Positions 18,552 to 55,206 of a stretch of DNA of 64,000 nt are shown piece after piece. The stretch comes from Rudaea sp. 3F27F6 (GTDB lineage Bacteria; Pseudomonadota; Gammaproteobacteria; Xanthomonadales; Rhodanobacteraceae), in assembly GCF_005503555.1 (NCBI RefSeq), contig NZ_SCNG01000002.1, positions 1,054,001 to 1,118,000 on the forward strand, written 5' to 3'. Positions within the stretch are counted from its first letter, which is position 1. The number at the start of each line of letters is the position of its first letter. Both the position numbers and the translations under genes were made by a program. The notes under the pieces were generated by a model. It searched no databases. It was not told the origin of the DNA and saw nothing but the letters and a program-made list of their open reading frames with translations.

Positions 18552-19076
18552 TCAGTTCGGCACGAGCAGGACCACGGCGCTCGCCGCGATGCCTTCACCG
18601 CGCCCGGTGAAGCCGAGCTTCTCGCTCGTCGTCGCCTTGATGCCGATCTGTCCGGCGCCGACGCCGAGGTCGACCGCGAGATGCTCGCGCATCGCCTGCG
18701 CATGCGGCGCGATCTTCGGCCGCTCGCAGACGAGAGTGATGTCGGCATTGCCGAGCGCATAGCCGTGTTCGCGCATCAGTTCCGCGCAGCGGCGCAGGAA
18801 CACGCGGCTGTCGGCGCCGCGCCAGCGCTCCTCGGACGGCGGAAAATGCGTGCCGATATCGCCGAGCGCGAGCGCACCGAGGATCGCATCGCACAGCGCG
18901 TGAATCGCCACGTCGCCGTCCGAGTGCGCGACGAGACCTTGCGTATGCGCAATGCGCACACCGCCGAGGACGATGTGGTCGCCGGGCCCGAAGGCGTGGA
19001 CGTCGAGGCCCTGTCCGATGCGCGGGAACCGCGATTCGGGATTCGAGACTCGGGATTCGGGGGAAGAGCCAGCCAC
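18552..19076 (-). CDS. ispF: 2-C-methyl-D-erythritol 2,4-cyclodiphosphate synthase
   Basis: This MEP-pathway enzyme forms MEcPP as a homotrimer. Zinc ligands are visible in GQGLDVHAF (Asp and His), with the third His in the segment before [28 protein letters not shown]. The C-terminus has [23 protein letters not shown]. Family members normally start right at the RIGQG motif, but no ATG exists there. The best start is GTG 19076, with GGAG 6 nt upstream, giving 174 residues. About 16 extra N-terminal residues ([15 protein letters not shown] and neighbours) are encoded by the GATTCGGG repeat. GTG 19103 is an alternative. The repeat appears to have replaced the native start region. Confidence 0.93.
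19033..19062 (+). repeat. GATTCGGG short repeat, left copy
   Basis: Degenerate tandem of GATTCGGG units (GATTCGGGATTCGAGAC then GGGATTCGGG). It lies inside the N-terminal coding region of ispF and is inverted relative to the copy at 19174-19203. I know this kind of repeat as frequent in Xanthomonadales genomes. Confidence 0.8.
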
Positions 19077-19167: not shown

Positions 19168-19908
19168 CTAGATCGAATCCCGAATCCCGAATCCCGAATC
19201 CCGGCCCAACAAAAACTCCGCCAACTCCATATCCGCCGGCGTCGTCACCTTGATATTGCTTTCCGCGCCCTCGACGAGCAAGGGCTTATGGCCGGCGCGC
19301 TCCATCGCCATCGCCTCGTCGGTCGCGAGGATGCCCGCCGCGTGCGCGGCTTCGAGCGCGGCGACCAGCTCGCCGTAACGGAACAACTGCGGCGTCAGTG
19401 CGCGCCAGCGCGCCTCGCGCGGCTCGGTCGCCACCGAGTGTCCCTGCGCATCGGCACGCTTCAAGGTGTCGCGCAGCGGTGCGGCAAGCAGCGCCCCGCC
19501 TGCGGGCAGGCCGAGTTCGATCAGGCGTGAAATGTCGTCCGCGCGCACGCAAGGCCGCGCCGCGTCGTGCACGAGGACGAAATGATCTTTCTGCACCCGA
19601 TCGTGCAGGGCATGCAGACCGGCCAGCACCGATTCGGCACGCTCGCCGCCGCCGATGCAGGCCGATACGGGCTTGTCGTGCAGCGAGGAAATACCCGGCC
19701 AATGCGCATCGTCCGCGGCAAGCGCAATCATCAATCCCGCGATGTCCGCATGCGCGGCAAGCCGCTCCAAGGTGCGCAGCAGCAGCGGCCTGCCGGCCAG
19801 CGGCAAATATTGTTTGGGAACGCCGCCGCCGAAACGCGCTCCGCGCCCCGCGGCCGGTACGACGCACCAGAGCCGCACACCGCCGGCCACGCGGTCAGTG
19901 CTTGGCAT
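19168..19908 (-). CDS. ispD: 2-C-methyl-D-erythritol 4-phosphate cytidylyltransferase
   Basis: This 246-residue MEP-pathway enzyme transfers CMP to MEP. The nucleotide-binding loop VVPAAGRGARFGGGVPKQYLPLAGRPLL is at about residues 16-44, and VLVHDAARPCVRADDI and TDEAMAMERAGHKPLLVEGAESNIKVTTPADMELAE are the other conserved blocks. The normal C-terminus would lie near AEFLLG; the last residues GRDSGFGIRDSI come from the GATTCGGG repeat and are an acquired tail. The start at 19908 overlaps ftsB by 14 bp. Confidence 0.95.
   Translation of the reverse strand: MPSTDRVAGGVRLWCVVPAAGRGARFGGGVPKQYLPLAGRPLLLRTLERLAAHADIAGLMIALAADDAHWPGISSLHDKPVSACIGGGERAESVLAGLHALHDRVQKDHFVLVHDAARPCVRADDISRLIELGLPAGGALLAAPLRDTLKRADAQGHSVATEPREARWRALTPQLFRYGELVAALEAAHAAGILATDEAMAMERAGHKPLLVEGAESNIKVTTPADMELAEFLLGRDSGFGIRDSI
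19174..19203 (-). repeat. GATTCGGG short repeat, right inverted copy
   Basis: Four tandem units of GAATCCC on the plus strand, the reverse complement of the copy at 19033-19062. They encode the C-terminal GRDSGFGIRDS of IspD. The two copies bracket about 110 bp at the ispD/ispF junction and could form a hairpin. Confidence 0.85.
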
Positions 19909-49661: not shown

Positions 49662-50717
49662 TCAGCGCAGCGAATTGTTGATCTTCGCCAAGTTGTCTGC
49701 GCCGGGACTAAGTTCCTTCGCGCCAAGACGGTTGATCGGCACTTCGGTCGTATTGAAGTGCTCGTGCAGGTCGTGCGCGTCGGGATCGACGTAGAGCAAT
49801 CCCGTGACGACTTCGCCCTTGGCTTGTTGCGCATGCACGTAGTTCATCGCTTTGATGCGGTCATGCGCATTGAAGTCGGCGCTGAGCTTGCGCAGGCGCA
49901 CGATGCTGCCGTCGTGCTGGGTCACGTCGACGATCTCGCCTTCGGCATAATCGACCGTGATCTCGGCGCGCACGTCGATGAAATCGAGCCGGTTCACCGC
50001 TTCGTTGTGCTCGCGCACATACTCGTAGCTCTTGGTGCTGCCGGCGTGATTGTTGAACGCCACGCACGGGCTGATCACGTCGATGAAGGCCGCGCCCCTG
50101 TGCGCGATTGCGCCCTTGATCAGCGGCACGAGTTGCTTCTTGTCGCCGGAGAATCCGCGCGCAACATAAGTGGCGCCGAGTTGCATCGCCAGGCCGACCA
50201 GATCGAGCGGGCTGTCGGTGTTGACGACGCCCTTCTTCGACTTCGAGCCCTGATCGGCCGTCGCGGAAAATTGGCCCTTGGTCAGGCCATAGACACCGTT
50301 GTTCTCGACGATGTAGACCATGTTGACGCCGCGCCGGATCGCGTGCACGAACTGGCCGATGCCGATCGAGGCCGAGTCGCCATCGCCCGACACGCCGAGA
50401 TAGAGCAGGTCGCGGTTGGCGAGGTTCGCGCCGGTCAGCACCGACGGCATGCGCCCGTGCACGGTGTTGAAGCCGTGCGACTGGCCGAGGAAATAATCCG
50501 GCGTCTTCGAGCTGCAGCCGATGCCGCTGAGTTTGGCGACGCGATGCGGTTCGATATCCAGTTCCCAGCAGGCCTGGATGATCGAGGCCGAAATCGAATC
50601 GTGGCCGCAGCCGGCGCAGAGCGTCGAAATCTTGCCTTCGTAGTCTCGGCGCGTGAAGCCGATCGCGTTGCAGGCCAGCGTCGGGTGATGCAGTTTGGGT
50701 TTGGCGATGTAGGTCAT
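49662..50717 (-). CDS. korB: 2-oxoacid:ferredoxin oxidoreductase, beta subunit
   Basis: This 351-residue thiamine-diphosphate-binding beta subunit is probably for 2-oxoglutarate. It has FTRRDYEGKISTLCAGCGHDSISASII (the CxxCGH cluster/TPP region), KLSGIGCSSKTPDYFLGQSHGFNTVHGRMP, VSGDGDSASIGIGQFVHAIRRGVNMVYIVENN (the GDGD...NN TPP motif), and a C-terminal cap. It is downstream of korA on the same strand across 170 bp of REP-like hairpins. It acts in the cytosol with ferredoxin as electron acceptor. Confidence 0.93.
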   Translation of the reverse strand: MTYIAKPKLHHPTLACNAIGFTRRDYEGKISTLCAGCGHDSISASIIQACWELDIEPHRVAKLSGIGCSSKTPDYFLGQSHGFNTVHGRMPSVLTGANLANRDLLYLGVSGDGDSASIGIGQFVHAIRRGVNMVYIVENNGVYGLTKGQFSATADQGSKSKKGVVNTDSPLDLVGLAMQLGATYVARGFSGDKKQLVPLIKGAIAHRGAAFIDVISPCVAFNNHAGSTKSYEYVREHNEAVNRLDFIDVRAEITVDYAEGEIVDVTQHDGSIVRLRKLSADFNAHDRIKAMNYVHAQQAKGEVVTGLLYVDPDAHDLHEHFNTTEVPINRLGAKELSPGADNLAKINNSLR

Positions 50718-50887: not shown

Positions 50888-52741
50888 TCACGCCGCATTC
50901 TCCTTCACCTTGGCTGGCCGCATCCGCGCGGCAATCGCACCCGCGATAAACCGCGCCGTGATCGGCGTGCCGTCGTAGTGCAGAACCGCGACGAGGCGCG
51001 CCGGGTCGATGCCGAATTCGTTGATCAGGAGTGTGCGCAATTGCCCGTCGCGATTCTGCTCGACGACGAAGACGCGCTCGTGCTGACGGATGAATTCGCC
51101 GACGCTGTCGGGGAACGGGAATGCACGCACGCGCAGCGTGTCGAGCACGAGGCTTTGCTTGCCGAGCAACTCGATCGCTTCGGCCATCGACGGGCTGGTC
51201 GAACCGTAATAGATCACGCCGTCGTGCGCCTCACCGCCGGTGCCGCGCAGGATCGGCTGCGGCACCAGCGATTTCGCCGTGTCCCATTTCCGCAGCAGGC
51301 GCTCCATGTTGTAGACGTAGTCGGGACCCTTTTCCGAGTAGCGCGCGTACGGGTCGCGCGAAGTGCCGCGCGTGAAGTAAGCACCGCGCTCGGCGTGCGT
51401 GCCGGGATAGGTGCGGTACGGAATGCCGTCGCCGTCGACGTCCTTGTAGCGGCCGAAATCCTTGCCCGCTTCGAGTTCCTCGGCCGTCATCACCTTGCCG
51501 CGGTCGTAGTCGCGCCGGTCGTCCCATTGAAACGGCGCGGTCAGGCGCTGGTTCATGCCGATGTCGAGATCGGTCAGCACAAAAATCGGCGTCTGCAGGC
51601 GATCGGCAAGATCGAGCGCCTGCGCCGAAAATTCGAAACACTCGTGCGGGTCTTCGGGCAACAGCAGCACGTGCTTGGTGTCGCCGTGCGAGGCGTACGC
51701 GCAGGCGAGCACGTCGGACTGCTGCGTGCGCGTCGGCATGCCGGTCGACGGGCCGCCGCGCTGCACGTCGATGATCGTCACCGGAATCTCGGCGAAGTAC
51801 GCGAGACCGATGAATTCGTTCATCAGCGAGATGCCCGGCCCCGCCGTCGTAGTGAATGCGCGCGCGCCGTTCCAGCCCGCGCCAACGCACATGCCGATCG
51901 AAGCGATCTCGTCTTCAGCCTGCACGATGGCGAAACGGTTGCGTCCGCTTTCGGCATCGACGCGGTACTTCATGCAGTACTTCTGGAATGCTTCGGCCAG
52001 CGAAGACGACGGCGTGATCGGATACCACGCACAGACCGTAGCGCCGCCGTAGACGCAGCCGAGTGCGGCGGCGACGTTGCCGTCGACGAAAATCTTCTCG
52101 CCGACGTTGTCGGCACGCTGCACATGCAGGCCGATCGGGTCGAGATGCTGCGCAGCGTGTTCACGCCCCAGCTCCAGCGCCTGCATGTTGGAATCGAGCA
52201 GCTTTTCCTTGCCCTTGTACTGCTCGGCGAACAAGCGCTTGATCTCGCGCGCGTCGATGCCGAGCAGCACGGACAAGGCGCCGAGATACATGATGTTCTT
52301 GAACAGTTGGCGCTGGCGCGCGTCGGCGTAAGTGCTATTGCAGATCGCCGTCAGCGGCATGCCGATGATATTGACGTCGTCGCGGAACTTCGACGCCGGC
52401 AGCGGACGCGTCGAGTCGTAAAACAAGTAGCCGCCCGGTTCGATTTCCTTGATGTCGGCATCCCAGGTCTGCGGATTCATTGCAACCATCAGATCGACAC
52501 CGCCGCGCCGGCCGAGCCAGCCACGCTCGCTGACGCGCACCTCGTACCAGGTCGGCAGGCCCTGGATGTTCGACGGAAAAATATTGCGCGGACTGACCGG
52601 CACGCCCATGCGCAGGATCGAGCGCGCGAACAGTTCGTTTGCCGACGCCGAACCCGAGCCGTTGACGTTGGCGAATTTGACGACGAAGTCGTTGGTGGCG
52701 GAAAGACGGTGAGCGGGAAGCGGTGAGCGGTGAGCGGTCAT
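50888..52741 (-). CDS. korA: 2-oxoacid:ferredoxin oxidoreductase, fused gamma-alpha subunit
   Basis: This 617-residue protein has an N-terminal gamma domain (about residues 15-190, FVVKFANVNGSGSASANELFARSILRMG) fused to the pyrimidine-binding alpha domain (about 205-590, AAALGCVYGGATVCAWYPITPSSSLAEAF, GPGISLMNEFIGLAYFAEIPVTIIDVQRGGPSTGMPTRTQQSDVL). The first residues MTAHRSPLPAHRL are encoded by the left inverted repeat of the neighbouring element, so the original start has been replaced. The ATG overlaps the stop of the four-helix gene (ATGA) and has GAGGTG upstream inside that gene. Confidence 0.94.
   Translation of the reverse strand: MTAHRSPLPAHRLSATNDFVVKFANVNGSGSASANELFARSILRMGVPVSPRNIFPSNIQGLPTWYEVRVSERGWLGRRGGVDLMVAMNPQTWDADIKEIEPGGYLFYDSTRPLPASKFRDDVNIIGMPLTAICNSTYADARQRQLFKNIMYLGALSVLLGIDAREIKRLFAEQYKGKEKLLDSNMQALELGREHAAQHLDPIGLHVQRADNVGEKIFVDGNVAAALGCVYGGATVCAWYPITPSSSLAEAFQKYCMKYRVDAESGRNRFAIVQAEDEIASIGMCVGAGWNGARAFTTTAGPGISLMNEFIGLAYFAEIPVTIIDVQRGGPSTGMPTRTQQSDVLACAYASHGDTKHVLLLPEDPHECFEFSAQALDLADRLQTPIFVLTDLDIGMNQRLTAPFQWDDRRDYDRGKVMTAEELEAGKDFGRYKDVDGDGIPYRTYPGTHAERGAYFTRGTSRDPYARYSEKGPDYVYNMERLLRKWDTAKSLVPQPILRGTGGEAHDGVIYYGSTSPSMAEAIELLGKQSLVLDTLRVRAFPFPDSVGEFIRQHERVFVVEQNRDGQLRTLLINEFGIDPARLVAVLHYDGTPITARFIAGAIAARMRPAKVKENAA
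52708..52737 (+). repeat. inverted repeat, left end of four-helix-bundle element
   Basis: About 30 bp made of GGTGAGCGG-type units (GGTGAGCGGGAAGCGGTGAG and on). It is the inverse of 53119-53149 apart from one extra G in the right copy. It lies in the 5' coding region of korA. Confidence 0.9.
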
Positions 52742-53163
52742 GGCGACACCTCGGCACGCGCACGCTTGACGTTGATCAGCGCATTGAGGCGTGCATTCAG
52801 AAGTTGCAGCGCGGATTGAAGCGGCTGGGCGTCGTCAAGAAAACCCAAATCACGCGCAATCCACAACTGCGTATCAAGCTCCGCGAGCGATCCTCTCGCA
52901 ATGGTCAGAAAGCGAATCAGCTCGACCCTGCCTCCTCTGCCCGCGCCTTCGGCGATATTGGAGGGAATGCTAACCGCGGCGCGGCGCATCTGACCGGTGA
53001 GACCGAAGCGCTCCTGCTCGGGAAATGCCGCGGTAGCGTGATAAATTTCTCGAACGAGACGCATCGCGTCCTTCCACACGTCAAGATCATAGTGCCTGGG
53101 ATGTTGACGCGGCTTTTCCCGCTCACCGCTCACCGCTTCCCCGCTCACCACTTTCAACTTCAC
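52738..53163 (-). CDS. four-helix bundle protein (S23/23S rRNA intervening-sequence type)
   Basis: This 141-residue protein matches the four-helix bundle (S23, IVP) family: DLDVWKDAMRLVREIYHAT, FPEQERFGLTGQMRRAAVSI, PSNIAEGAGRGGRVELIRFL, ARGSLAELDTQLWIARDLGFL. Family members are best known from ORFs within intervening sequences of 23S rRNA and as homologues of the Avd accessory proteins of diversity-generating retroelements. GTG 53163 is chosen: GGGAGG lies just upstream, and it overlaps the upstream stop (GTGA). The first residues VKLKVVSGEAVSGER come from the right inverted repeat. Its stop overlaps the korA ATG. The function here is unknown. Confidence 0.88.
   Translation of the reverse strand: MKLKVVSGEAVSGEREKPRQHPRHYDLDVWKDAMRLVREIYHATAAFPEQERFGLTGQMRRAAVSIPSNIAEGAGRGGRVELIRFLTIARGSLAELDTQLWIARDLGFLDDAQPLQSALQLLNARLNALINVKRARAEVSP
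53119..53149 (-). repeat. inverted repeat, right end of four-helix-bundle element
   Basis: The reverse complement of 52708-52737 with a one-base length difference. It encodes the N-terminal VVSGEAVSGER of the four-helix protein. Together the pair brackets about 440 bp. Confidence 0.9.
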
Positions 53164-54980
53164 GCGACCTCCCGTCTGCGTGCACGGCACCCCGGCCCAG
53201 CCTGCGTCGTTTCGAGCAGAAACTTGCGCATGTCCCAAGCGCCGGTCGGGCAGCGTTCGGCGCAGAGTCCGCAGTGCAGGCAGACGTCTTCGTCCTTGAC
53301 CATCACCCTGCCCGTCTTCAACGCATCGGACACGTATAGCGACTGAGTAAGGTTCAGCGCCGGCGCAGTCAGATGCGTGCGCAGCTCGGCTTCTTCACCG
53401 TTTTCGGTGAAGCTGATGCAGTCCATCGGACAGATATCGACGCAGGCATCGCATTCGATGCAGGCGTCCTTGGTGAACACGGTTTGCACGTCGCAGTTGA
53501 GACAGCGCTGCGCTTCCTGCACCGCGGTCACCGCATCGAAACCGAGTTCGACCTCGACCTTGATGCTTTTCAAGGTCGCCGCTTTCTCGCGCCACGGCAC
53601 GACGTAGCGCTGGTCATTGGAGATGTCGTTGTCGTAACTCCACTCGTGGATGCCCATCTTCTGCGAGATCAGGCTGACCGCGGGTTCGGGGCGTTCGTGG
53701 ATGTCCTCGCCGCTCAGCATCTTGTCGATCGACACGGCGGCCTCGTGCCCGTGCGCGACCGCCCAGATGATGTTCTTCGGCCCGAACGCTGCGTCGCCGC
53801 CGAAGAAGACGTTCGCCAAGGTCGATTGCATCGTCGCCTTGTCGACCTTGGGCAGACCCCACTCGTCGAAGTCGATGCCGACGTCGCGCTCGATCCACGG
53901 AAACGCATTTTCCTGACCGACCGCGATCAGCACTTCGTCGCATTCGAAAAATGCGTAGGGCTCGCCGGTCGGCACCAGCTGGCGACGGCCTTTCACGTCG
54001 CGCTCGGCGCGCACTTTCTCGAAGGTCATGCCGATCAGTTTGCCGTCGCGATGCTCGAAGGTTTTCGGTACGAGGTAGTTGAGGATCGGGATGCCTTCGT
54101 GCATCGCGTCCTCTTTCTCCCACGGACTCGCCTTCATTTCCTCGAAGCCGGAACGCACGATCACCTTCACGTCCTCGCCGCCGAGCCGGCGCGAGGAACG
54201 GCAGCAGTCCATCGCGGTGTTGCCGCCGCCGAGCACGATCACGCGCTTGCCGATGCTCTTGATGTGCTCGAAGTAGACCGACGCGAGCCAGTCCAGACCG
54301 ATGTGAATATTCGCCGCGGCCTCGCTGCGTCCCGGCAGATCGAGATCGCGGCCGCGCGGCGCGCCGCTGCCGACGAAAACCGCGTCGAAATTCTGTGCGA
54401 GCAGATCGCGCATCGAATCGATGCGCGCGCCGCCGCGGAATTCGACGCCGAGATCGAGCACGTGGCCGACTTCCTCGTCGATCACTTCTTCGGGCAGGCG
54501 AAAGCGCGGCACCTGGGTGCGCATGAAGCCGCCGCCCTTTTGCTCGGCTTCGAACACGGTGACGTGATAGCCGAGCGGCGCGAGATCGCGCGCGACGGTC
54601 AGCGCCGAAGGCCCTGCGCCGACGCAGGCGATGCGCTTGCCGTTTTTCTTCGCGGCCGGTTTCGGCATGCGTGCACGCACCGCGGCATGGTCTTTGTTGT
54701 CGGCCGCCACACGTTTCAGGCGGCAGATCGCCACCGGTTCGGGCTTGTCCGCATCTTCGACGCGTCCGCGCCGGCAGGCCGGCTCGCAGGGGCGGTCGCA
54801 GGTGCGGCCGAGGATGCCGGGGAAGACGTTCGATTTCCAATTGACGAGATAAGCATCGTCATACCGCCCCGCGGCGATCAGCCGGATGTATTCGGGGACC
54901 GGAGTGTGAGCCGGACAGGCCCACTGGCAATCGACGACTTTGTGGAAATAGTCAGGTACGCGAATATCGGTAGCTTTCAC
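53160..54980 (-). CDS. GltD-like FAD/NAD(P) oxidoreductase with C-terminal 2x[4Fe-4S] ferredoxin domain
   Basis: This protein of about 606 residues starts with the GltD cluster domain (CQWACPAHTPVPEYIRLI, GRTCDRPCEPACRRG). Next come the FAD-binding segment RIACVGAGPSALTVARDLAPLGYHVTVFEAE, the NAD(P)-binding segment RVIVLGGGNTAMDCCRSSRR and FFGGDAAFGPKNIIWAVAHG. The C-terminal region has CIECDACVDICPMDCI and CLHCGLCAERCPTGAW, two [4Fe-4S] sites. GTG 54980 has GGAGGG about 7 nt upstream; ATG 55082 is a longer alternative. It is first in the run with the four-helix gene, korA and korB, so it probably links ferredoxin from the KorAB reaction to NAD(P)H. Confidence 0.9.
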   Translation of the reverse strand: MKATDIRVPDYFHKVVDCQWACPAHTPVPEYIRLIAAGRYDDAYLVNWKSNVFPGILGRTCDRPCEPACRRGRVEDADKPEPVAICRLKRVAADNKDHAAVRARMPKPAAKKNGKRIACVGAGPSALTVARDLAPLGYHVTVFEAEQKGGGFMRTQVPRFRLPEEVIDEEVGHVLDLGVEFRGGARIDSMRDLLAQNFDAVFVGSGAPRGRDLDLPGRSEAAANIHIGLDWLASVYFEHIKSIGKRVIVLGGGNTAMDCCRSSRRLGGEDVKVIVRSGFEEMKASPWEKEDAMHEGIPILNYLVPKTFEHRDGKLIGMTFEKVRAERDVKGRRQLVPTGEPYAFFECDEVLIAVGQENAFPWIERDVGIDFDEWGLPKVDKATMQSTLANVFFGGDAAFGPKNIIWAVAHGHEAAVSIDKMLSGEDIHERPEPAVSLISQKMGIHEWSYDNDISNDQRYVVPWREKAATLKSIKVEVELGFDAVTAVQEAQRCLNCDVQTVFTKDACIECDACVDICPMDCISFTENGEEAELRTHLTAPALNLTQSLYVSDALKTGRVMVKDEDVCLHCGLCAERCPTGAWDMRKFLLETTQAGPGCRARRREVA

Positions 54981-55206
54981 CAACGCCCTCCGCGATGCGG
55001 TCTTGACCCGGTCGGGGTTCCGGATTGCCGCTTGGCCCGAGTCTACTCTCGCGCGGCGGGGCTCCGCAAAGGCATGCCGCATTAATCGATCTTCATGCGA
55101 CGGAGTGCACGATTTGTTGCGATGCAGCGTGATGGCGACTAGCATACGGAGGTTCTGCCCCGTGCAGAATTTGTTCGAATTCTTCCGCACGCCGGGAACC
55201 CACGCT

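Follow-up and report, generated by a model that had tools for sequence, protein, structure and literature searches.

The question raised by this locus is how a gene of the S23/IVP four-helix family, a family known from intervening sequences (IVSs) of 23S rRNA, comes to lie inside a metabolic operon of Rudaea sp. 3F27F6. The window analysed is a stretch of 64,000 nucleotides of that genome (contig NZ_SCNG01000002.1, positions 1,054,001 to 1,118,000; feature positions below are those of the window), and the gene (52738..53163, minus strand) stands between a gene for a GltD-like protein and korA, with inverted arrays of a 7-bp unit, GTGAGCG, on either side of it. This anatomy recurs around other genes of the same family (PF05635), and both the anatomy and its recurrence are practically certain. 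We lean, with reserve, towards reading the unit as a heptad-armed S23 element, an IVS-type hairpin placed in the joint of an mRNA operon; as about two-thirds of the gene relatives examined, in many phyla, are framed in the same manner, such hairpins may be a type of element that has received little recognition.

The operon on the minus strand reads GltD-like gene, four-helix gene, korA, beta subunit. By family search, the upstream host gene (53160..54983, minus strand, start position putative) encodes a GltD-like NAD(P)-binding Fe-S protein, the downstream host korA (50888..52741, minus strand) the alpha subunit of a 2-oxoacid:acceptor oxidoreductase, and the next gene (49662..50717, minus strand) the beta subunit of the same enzyme. 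The four-helix open reading frame (ORF) has a GTG start and 141 codons for amino acids; it matches PF05635 with E=2.6e-34 (118 bits, cut-off 33.8), and its profile matches PDB 2gsc (XCC0516, E=1.7e-48) as well as PDB 2rld, structures with five chains each. Both of its joints are 4-base overlaps on the minus strand: GTGA (53160..53163) joins the stop of the GltD-like gene to the four-helix start, and ATGA (52738..52741) joins the four-helix stop to the start of korA. A promoter and terminator scan gave nothing above shuffles, and PADLOC gave no match.

The 5' arm in the sense of the operon, GGTGAGCGGGGAAGCGGTGAGCGGTGAGCGG (53119..53149, minus strand, 31 nt), falls in the sequence coding for the N-terminus of the four-helix protein, and the 3' arm, the reverse complement of GGTGAGCGGGAAGCGGTGAGCGGTGAGCGG (52708..52737, minus strand, 30 nt), in that coding for the N-terminus of KorA; accordingly encoded in the arms are the residues VKLKVVSGEAVSGERE of the four-helix protein and the first residues MTAHRSPLPAHRL of KorA. 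The longest exact inverted match between the arms is 23 nt, and Tandem Repeats Finder (TRF) reports period-7 arrays at both. The word GGTGAGCGG occurs eight times in the window, six of them inside the two arms, against 1.07 expected and at most five in 100 shuffles. RNA folding predicts that the arms pair in the minimum free energy and centroid structures alike (-222.9 kcal/mol, z -4.5), a stability equalled in none of 100 shuffles. The initial annotation of this DNA, made from the letters alone, had described an S23/IVP gene of about 140 codons between the GltD-like gene and korA, 4-bp overlaps at both joints, inverted repeats of about 30 bp differing by one base in length, and N-termini supplied by those repeats, and each of these statements holds. 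Absent from it was that the arms are members of a genome-wide family of period-7 arrays.

Arms of this kind are found around most of the PF05635 genes surveyed. Three sets of loci were assembled: 27 genes from the window's own genome and 21 of 60 genomes; the best 80 of 588 named relatives, picked by likeness to the query; and 30 genes out of those present in 52 of 299 genomes of the phylum. One of these 137 loci lies at a contig edge and was excluded, leaving 136, two of which (L048 and L075) are probably one gene. To score arms, the 350-bp flanks of a locus were compared for their best ungapped inverted match, with displaced windows at the same loci as controls. A score of at least 14 was reached by 90 of the 136 loci (18/27, 53/79 and 19/30 in the three sets) against 8 of 1062 controls, and a score of at least 20 by 46 loci against none of the controls. 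The excess persists when the loci are thinned at 60% protein identity (49/72 against 4/578) or at 50% (18/26 against 0/156). Arrays on both sides have period 7 at 67 of the 136 loci and period 8 at six, whereas periods 5, 6 and 9 do not occur; pooled arms match themselves at lag 7 (73%) and lag 14 (74%), compared with 25-33% at the remaining lags from 3 to 13. On the inward strand G exceeds C at 88 of the 90 armed loci, the exceptions being L083 and L132. The unit itself varies (GGGAATC, GGGACCG, GGTGACG, GGCGAAT, GGTTTCA, GTAGGCA, GTGAACA and others), and record titles place armed loci in Lysobacterales, Bacteroidota, Acidobacteriota, Planctomycetes, Cloacimonadota, Chloroflexi and Desulfuromonadales, among others. 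Both neighbouring genes are co-directional at 53 of 81 armed loci, a count from a crude ORF caller with visible errors in G+C-rich loci and no control, which makes it weak support.

Two loci of the survey are of separate interest. The S23 gene of a Lewinella (L116) has arms built from GACAGAT, which is also the reported heptamer of the Coxiella IVS, and at L051 (G039:C117) an S23 gene lies between long inverted arrays whose unit is not a heptad; it is a small hairpin of about 26 bp, consisting of GGGGAACG and a variable palindrome. A check with two 23S rRNA words gave no match in the loci, which is no proof that the loci are absent from 23S rRNA. Genes confirmed by family are carB, glyA, nrdR, accC, argG, ispD, ispF and N-acetylornithine carbamoyltransferase; the ORF chosen as carA beside L043 had no family match, and carA is unconfirmed there.

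The two arms of a locus are mirror copies of each other. Arm against arm they are 92% identical, a figure raised by the choice of the best match, compared with 73% between adjacent units within an arm. When the heptads of one arm were permuted and the best register was taken again, which was feasible for 59 of the 90 armed loci, the match fell in 51 loci and rose in four (p=1e-9); deviant bases agree at the mirrored position in 54% of cases, against 45% in shuffles. The arms have been kept alike, for which copying in DNA and selection for an RNA stem are equally fitting explanations.

The joint between gltD and korA was compared across the 60 genomes; KorA was found in 30 of them, and the joint could be read in 21. 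It is empty in 12, the two genes overlapping directly, and these include G008 (KorA 96% identical) and G002 (KorA 94%); six contain other repeats, including G011 (KorA 95% identical); two contain a gene-less heptad pair; and only the window's own genome has the S23 gene there. The other repeats (L181, L183, L185, L186, L188 and L194, in G011, G003, G009, G012, G010 and G038, respectively) are short interspersed repeats, mostly of the CCTCTCCCC type, and these unrelated repeats indicate that small elements in general are tolerated at this joint or drawn to it. The two heptad pairs, inverted and with the unit GGGGCAC, are found in more distant relatives of another family (L198 in G055, L199 in G046), and the only PF05635 gene of G046 is located elsewhere in its genome and has GGGGCAC arms of its own. 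Doubled GGGGCAC occurs in three of the 60 genomes (27 times in G046, 19 in G055 and 3 in G022); a reversed control is uninformative because this pattern is its own mirror.

Gene-less arrays are abundant in the source genome (5.70 Mb, 16 contigs) as well. The pattern GGTGAGCGGTGAGCGG is present in 81 copies at 21 places and its reversal in none, and since the genome has a single PF05635 gene, 20 of these places are gene-less. At ten of the 20, arrays pair inward across a short spacer (score of at least 13), and three more scored 10-12. At four places (L019, L033, L037 and L042) a single array of 8-13 exact units has no inverted partner within 260 bp, and that of L019 runs on into GTGAACG units. 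An AAAGC-like motif at the inner edge of 14 of 26 array ends in this genome was not used as evidence because a control is lacking. Across nine groups of relatives, 66 gene-less arrays have an inward partner, none has an outward partner and 36 are unpartnered (102 classified, three at contig edges excluded). We read the gene-less places as gene-less versions of the same hairpin. The window itself contains a second pair, gene-less and with another unit, GGGATTC, at the ispD|ispF joint: one arm (19173..19203, minus strand) is at the 3' end of ispD and its partner (19031..19060) is in the 5' end of ispF, where the G-rich strand is the plus strand, antisense to ispF. The final 12 residues of IspD are encoded in this pair, as are some of the roughly 27 residues by which the N-terminus of IspF is extended.

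Among the 60 genomes, GTGAGCG arrays occur in a few: 81 hits in the source genome, 112 in its same-genus relative G003, 48 in G011, six in G002 and one in G037, with no PF05635 match in G011 or G002. GGGAATC arrays are present in 9 of 21 genomes that have PF05635 and in 4 of 39 that do not (p=0.007). Arrays and S23 gene are tied only loosely.

At two further joints, different units occupy the same position. Between the N-acetylornithine carbamoyltransferase gene (argF') and argG, the source genome has a gene-less GTGAGCG pair (G000:C14:14764-14877; L039, about 1440-1600), G002 has GGGACTC, G001 has GGGAATC-like arms, G003 has a GGGCTGA array whose left partner is weak, and G008 and G011 have no heptads. 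Between accC and the gene that we take, from its sequence ending, to be accB, a gene-less GTGAGCG pair is common to the source genome and G003, while in 13 other loci with the same neighbouring gene, nine of which were read, this position is taken by an S23 gene whose arms resemble GGGAATC or GGGATTC. Such a pattern would arise if units had inserted repeatedly at tolerant joints, or if old sites had changed their units in concert.

One close counterpart is the IVS of Coxiella 23S rRNA, which is reported to contain an S23 ORF, a 28-bp stem with tandem GACAGAT heptamers and a site of RNase III cleavage (PMC4990558). Like the unit of the window, it has a loop that holds an S23 (PF05635) ORF, ends in inverted repeats of about 28-31 nt, carries heptamers in the stem and is about 0.45 kb long, but the window unit lies outside 23S rRNA, in the protein-coding joint between the GltD-like gene and korA, and its ORF overlaps both neighbours by four bases. 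In kind the unit is likely akin to S23-bearing IVSs, though by its location it is no 23S IVS. Rehm et al. (2015) described GGGAATC and GGGGA(C/T)T heptamers of Xanthomonas and Nostoc, treated as G-quadruplex repeats, and counted 70 convergent GGGAATC pairs in the Xanthomonas genome designated Xcc and 75 in that designated Xac, preferably between aligned ORFs (PMC4692102). Period-7 G-rich arrays, convergent pairs and placement between aligned ORFs are also features of the window's genome, the placement as judged from few gene-less sites. Rehm et al. assign these heptamers no functional class, regulatory role or association with mobile elements, and the terms S23, four helix and intervening do not appear in the main text of that paper. 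The P6b stem of Nostoc trnL likewise consists of complementary seven-nucleotide repeats, whose class has switched repeatedly at one site (PMC4476775); it differs in being part of a group I intron. The TAACTGA repeats of Beggiatoaceae are intergenic heptamer arrays near start codons, with one inverted pair reported, for which MacGregor suggested a repeat-binding protein, possibly the mobile part (PMC4679880); the main text of that paper contains neither S23 nor four helix. The Avd protein of diversity-generating retroelements is a homologous four-helix protein (phrog_3206, E=1.6e-5; PMC10053308), whereas no reverse transcriptase lies beside the window gene, the sole PF00078 match of the genome being on contig C13. 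A literature search, with most subscription journals and preprints outside its scope, returned no paper in which S23 genes in general are connected with heptad arms.

The hairpin that we favour would have the S23/IVP four-helix gene as its loop and the mirror-image arrays of 7-nt units, with their G-rich strands directed inward, as its arms. In the operon transcript the arms would pair into a stem, and RNase III could cut that stem as it does in the 23S IVS; by this analogy, cleavage of the operon message is conceivable but somewhat doubtful. The S23 protein of Xanthomonas is a homopentamer ring according to PMC4990558 (citing Lin 2006), and a pentamer of this kind may bind the heptad arrays, perhaps with one unit per subunit, a putative activity that we regard as quite possible. 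Comparison by eye of diverged sequences suggests that the unit took over the start region of korA: the four-helix gene would have acquired its start from the old, overlapping one of korA, and the terminal ATGA of the unit together with the 3' arm would have supplied the new start of KorA. Translation coupling would thereby have been kept.

Several observations weigh against this reading. No repeat with a score of at least 14 was found at 46 of the 136 loci; 30 of these 46 are flanked on one side or both by a period-7 array. The 13 loci with the S23 unit at accB|accC probably owe it to vertical inheritance, so that the 136 loci are not independent. Gene-less arrays are common and occur also in genomes with no PF05635 match (G011, G002, G029 and G026), while G003, with all its GTGAGCG hits, has GGGAGTG-like arms at its own S23 gene. 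The argF'|argG pair has a leader and a start codon between its arms, which one simple insertion does not explain, and a target-site duplication is not evident where joints with diverged flanks were compared by eye. Mismatches between arms have no G-U skew (40 of 233, and 65 of the opposite kind), contrary to what selection for RNA pairing predicts; this signature was looked for in the arms and is absent, which gives no support to RNA pairing as what keeps them alike. The likeness of units tracks that of S23 proteins mainly above 55-60% identity; the correlation is weak at 45-60% (rho 0.105) and nil below 50%. Deep co-evolution of unit and protein thus finds no support below 50%, and with co-variation so weak, recognition of a unit by its own protein is little supported. 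The central claim of the initial annotation, an IVS-like element inside an mRNA operon, is supported in part. Its anatomy stands, the joint is empty in close relatives (G008 and G002), as it had proposed to check, and the suggested search for other four-helix genes with flanking inverted repeats yielded the 90 armed loci. It had also held that the idea would fail if the repeats were common without the gene, and they are, at 20 further places in this genome, which shows that the arms are not tied to the gene.

In a rival, regulatory explanation, the S23 protein would be a nucleic-acid-binding regulator, the heptad pairs its operators at operon joints in RNA or DNA, and the pair at its own gene a means of autoregulation; there would be no mobile unit, the arrays having spread by slippage and recombination and been kept by selection. 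The extension of arms at gene joints into coding ends (KorA, ArgG, IspD and IspF), the occurrence of a pentamer alongside repeated heptads and MacGregor's proposal for the TAACTGA arrays would all suit such a regulon, but arrays remain in the four genomes without PF05635 named above, the joints seen belong to unrelated pathways, and Rehm et al. report no functional class or regulatory role; we consider it unlikely. Slippage might instead have grown heptamers at tolerant joints, a fold-back template switch having copied the array across and S23 genes having merely settled there. Simple repeats beside an unrelated gene are ruled out as the sole explanation by the locus statistics, before and after thinning at 60% identity, and the absence of outward pairs against 66 inward ones and the presence of heptamers in the Coxiella 23S IVS argue against them too, which makes this account improbable even with the unrelated repeats at gltD|korA in 6 of 21 genomes, the 36 of 102 unpartnered gene-less arrays and the mirrored arms without G-U skew, as DNA-level copying would leave them, in its favour.

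A DNA transposon, whose heptad ends the S23 protein would act on in transposition, either unaided or helped by a reverse transcriptase or Y1 transposase in trans, is very improbable. Multiple copies (21 places in the source genome, one with the gene) and empty joints in relatives are what a transposon or a miniature inverted-repeat transposable element would have in common with the unit, and the homology to Avd also speaks for this reading. The unit has no transposase and no other catalytic domain, however, PF05635 being the sole family found in its ORF, and no target-site duplication was seen by eye at the joints with their diverged flanks. PF00078 is not linked with PF05635 (7 of 21 genomes with it, 9 of 39 without; p=0.54), and G003, with its 112 hits, matches neither PF00078 nor PF01797; a reverse transcriptase or Y1 transposase as a required partner was rejected on these grounds, and the lack of a PF01797 match in G003 also sets the unit apart from repetitive extragenic palindromes and their associated transposases (REP/RAYT). 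As a separate observation, the sole PF01797 and sole PF00078 matches of the source genome lie less than 3 kb apart on contig C13 (324627-327122; 330809), a few kilobases from a GTGAGCG array.

Beyond the hairpin element favoured for the window, a wider and more speculative proposal is that heptad-armed hairpins, with inward G-rich, mirrored 7-nt arms recognised by pentameric S23 proteins, form a class found throughout bacteria. S23 units would be its complete form, and 23S IVSs, the GGGAATC heptamers of Xanthomonas, the trnL P6b stems of Nostoc and similar arrays would be its gene-bearing or gene-less descendants. We hold this to be possible rather than probable. If the arrays of a genome can switch unit together, as the proposal includes, this would account for sister species having unlike units at one joint.

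The function and origin of S23-bearing IVSs have been called unclear for more than 25 years in PMC4990558, and heptamer repeats, which in several bacteria outnumber every other class of long repeat, have no known role according to PMC4692102. These may be one puzzle, its two halves being parts of one hairpin element. If that is true, the pentameric protein gains a directly testable candidate ligand in the heptad arrays, many 'hypothetical four helix bundle proteins' gain a context, and the array-encoded ends of KorA, ArgG, IspD and IspF would be explained.

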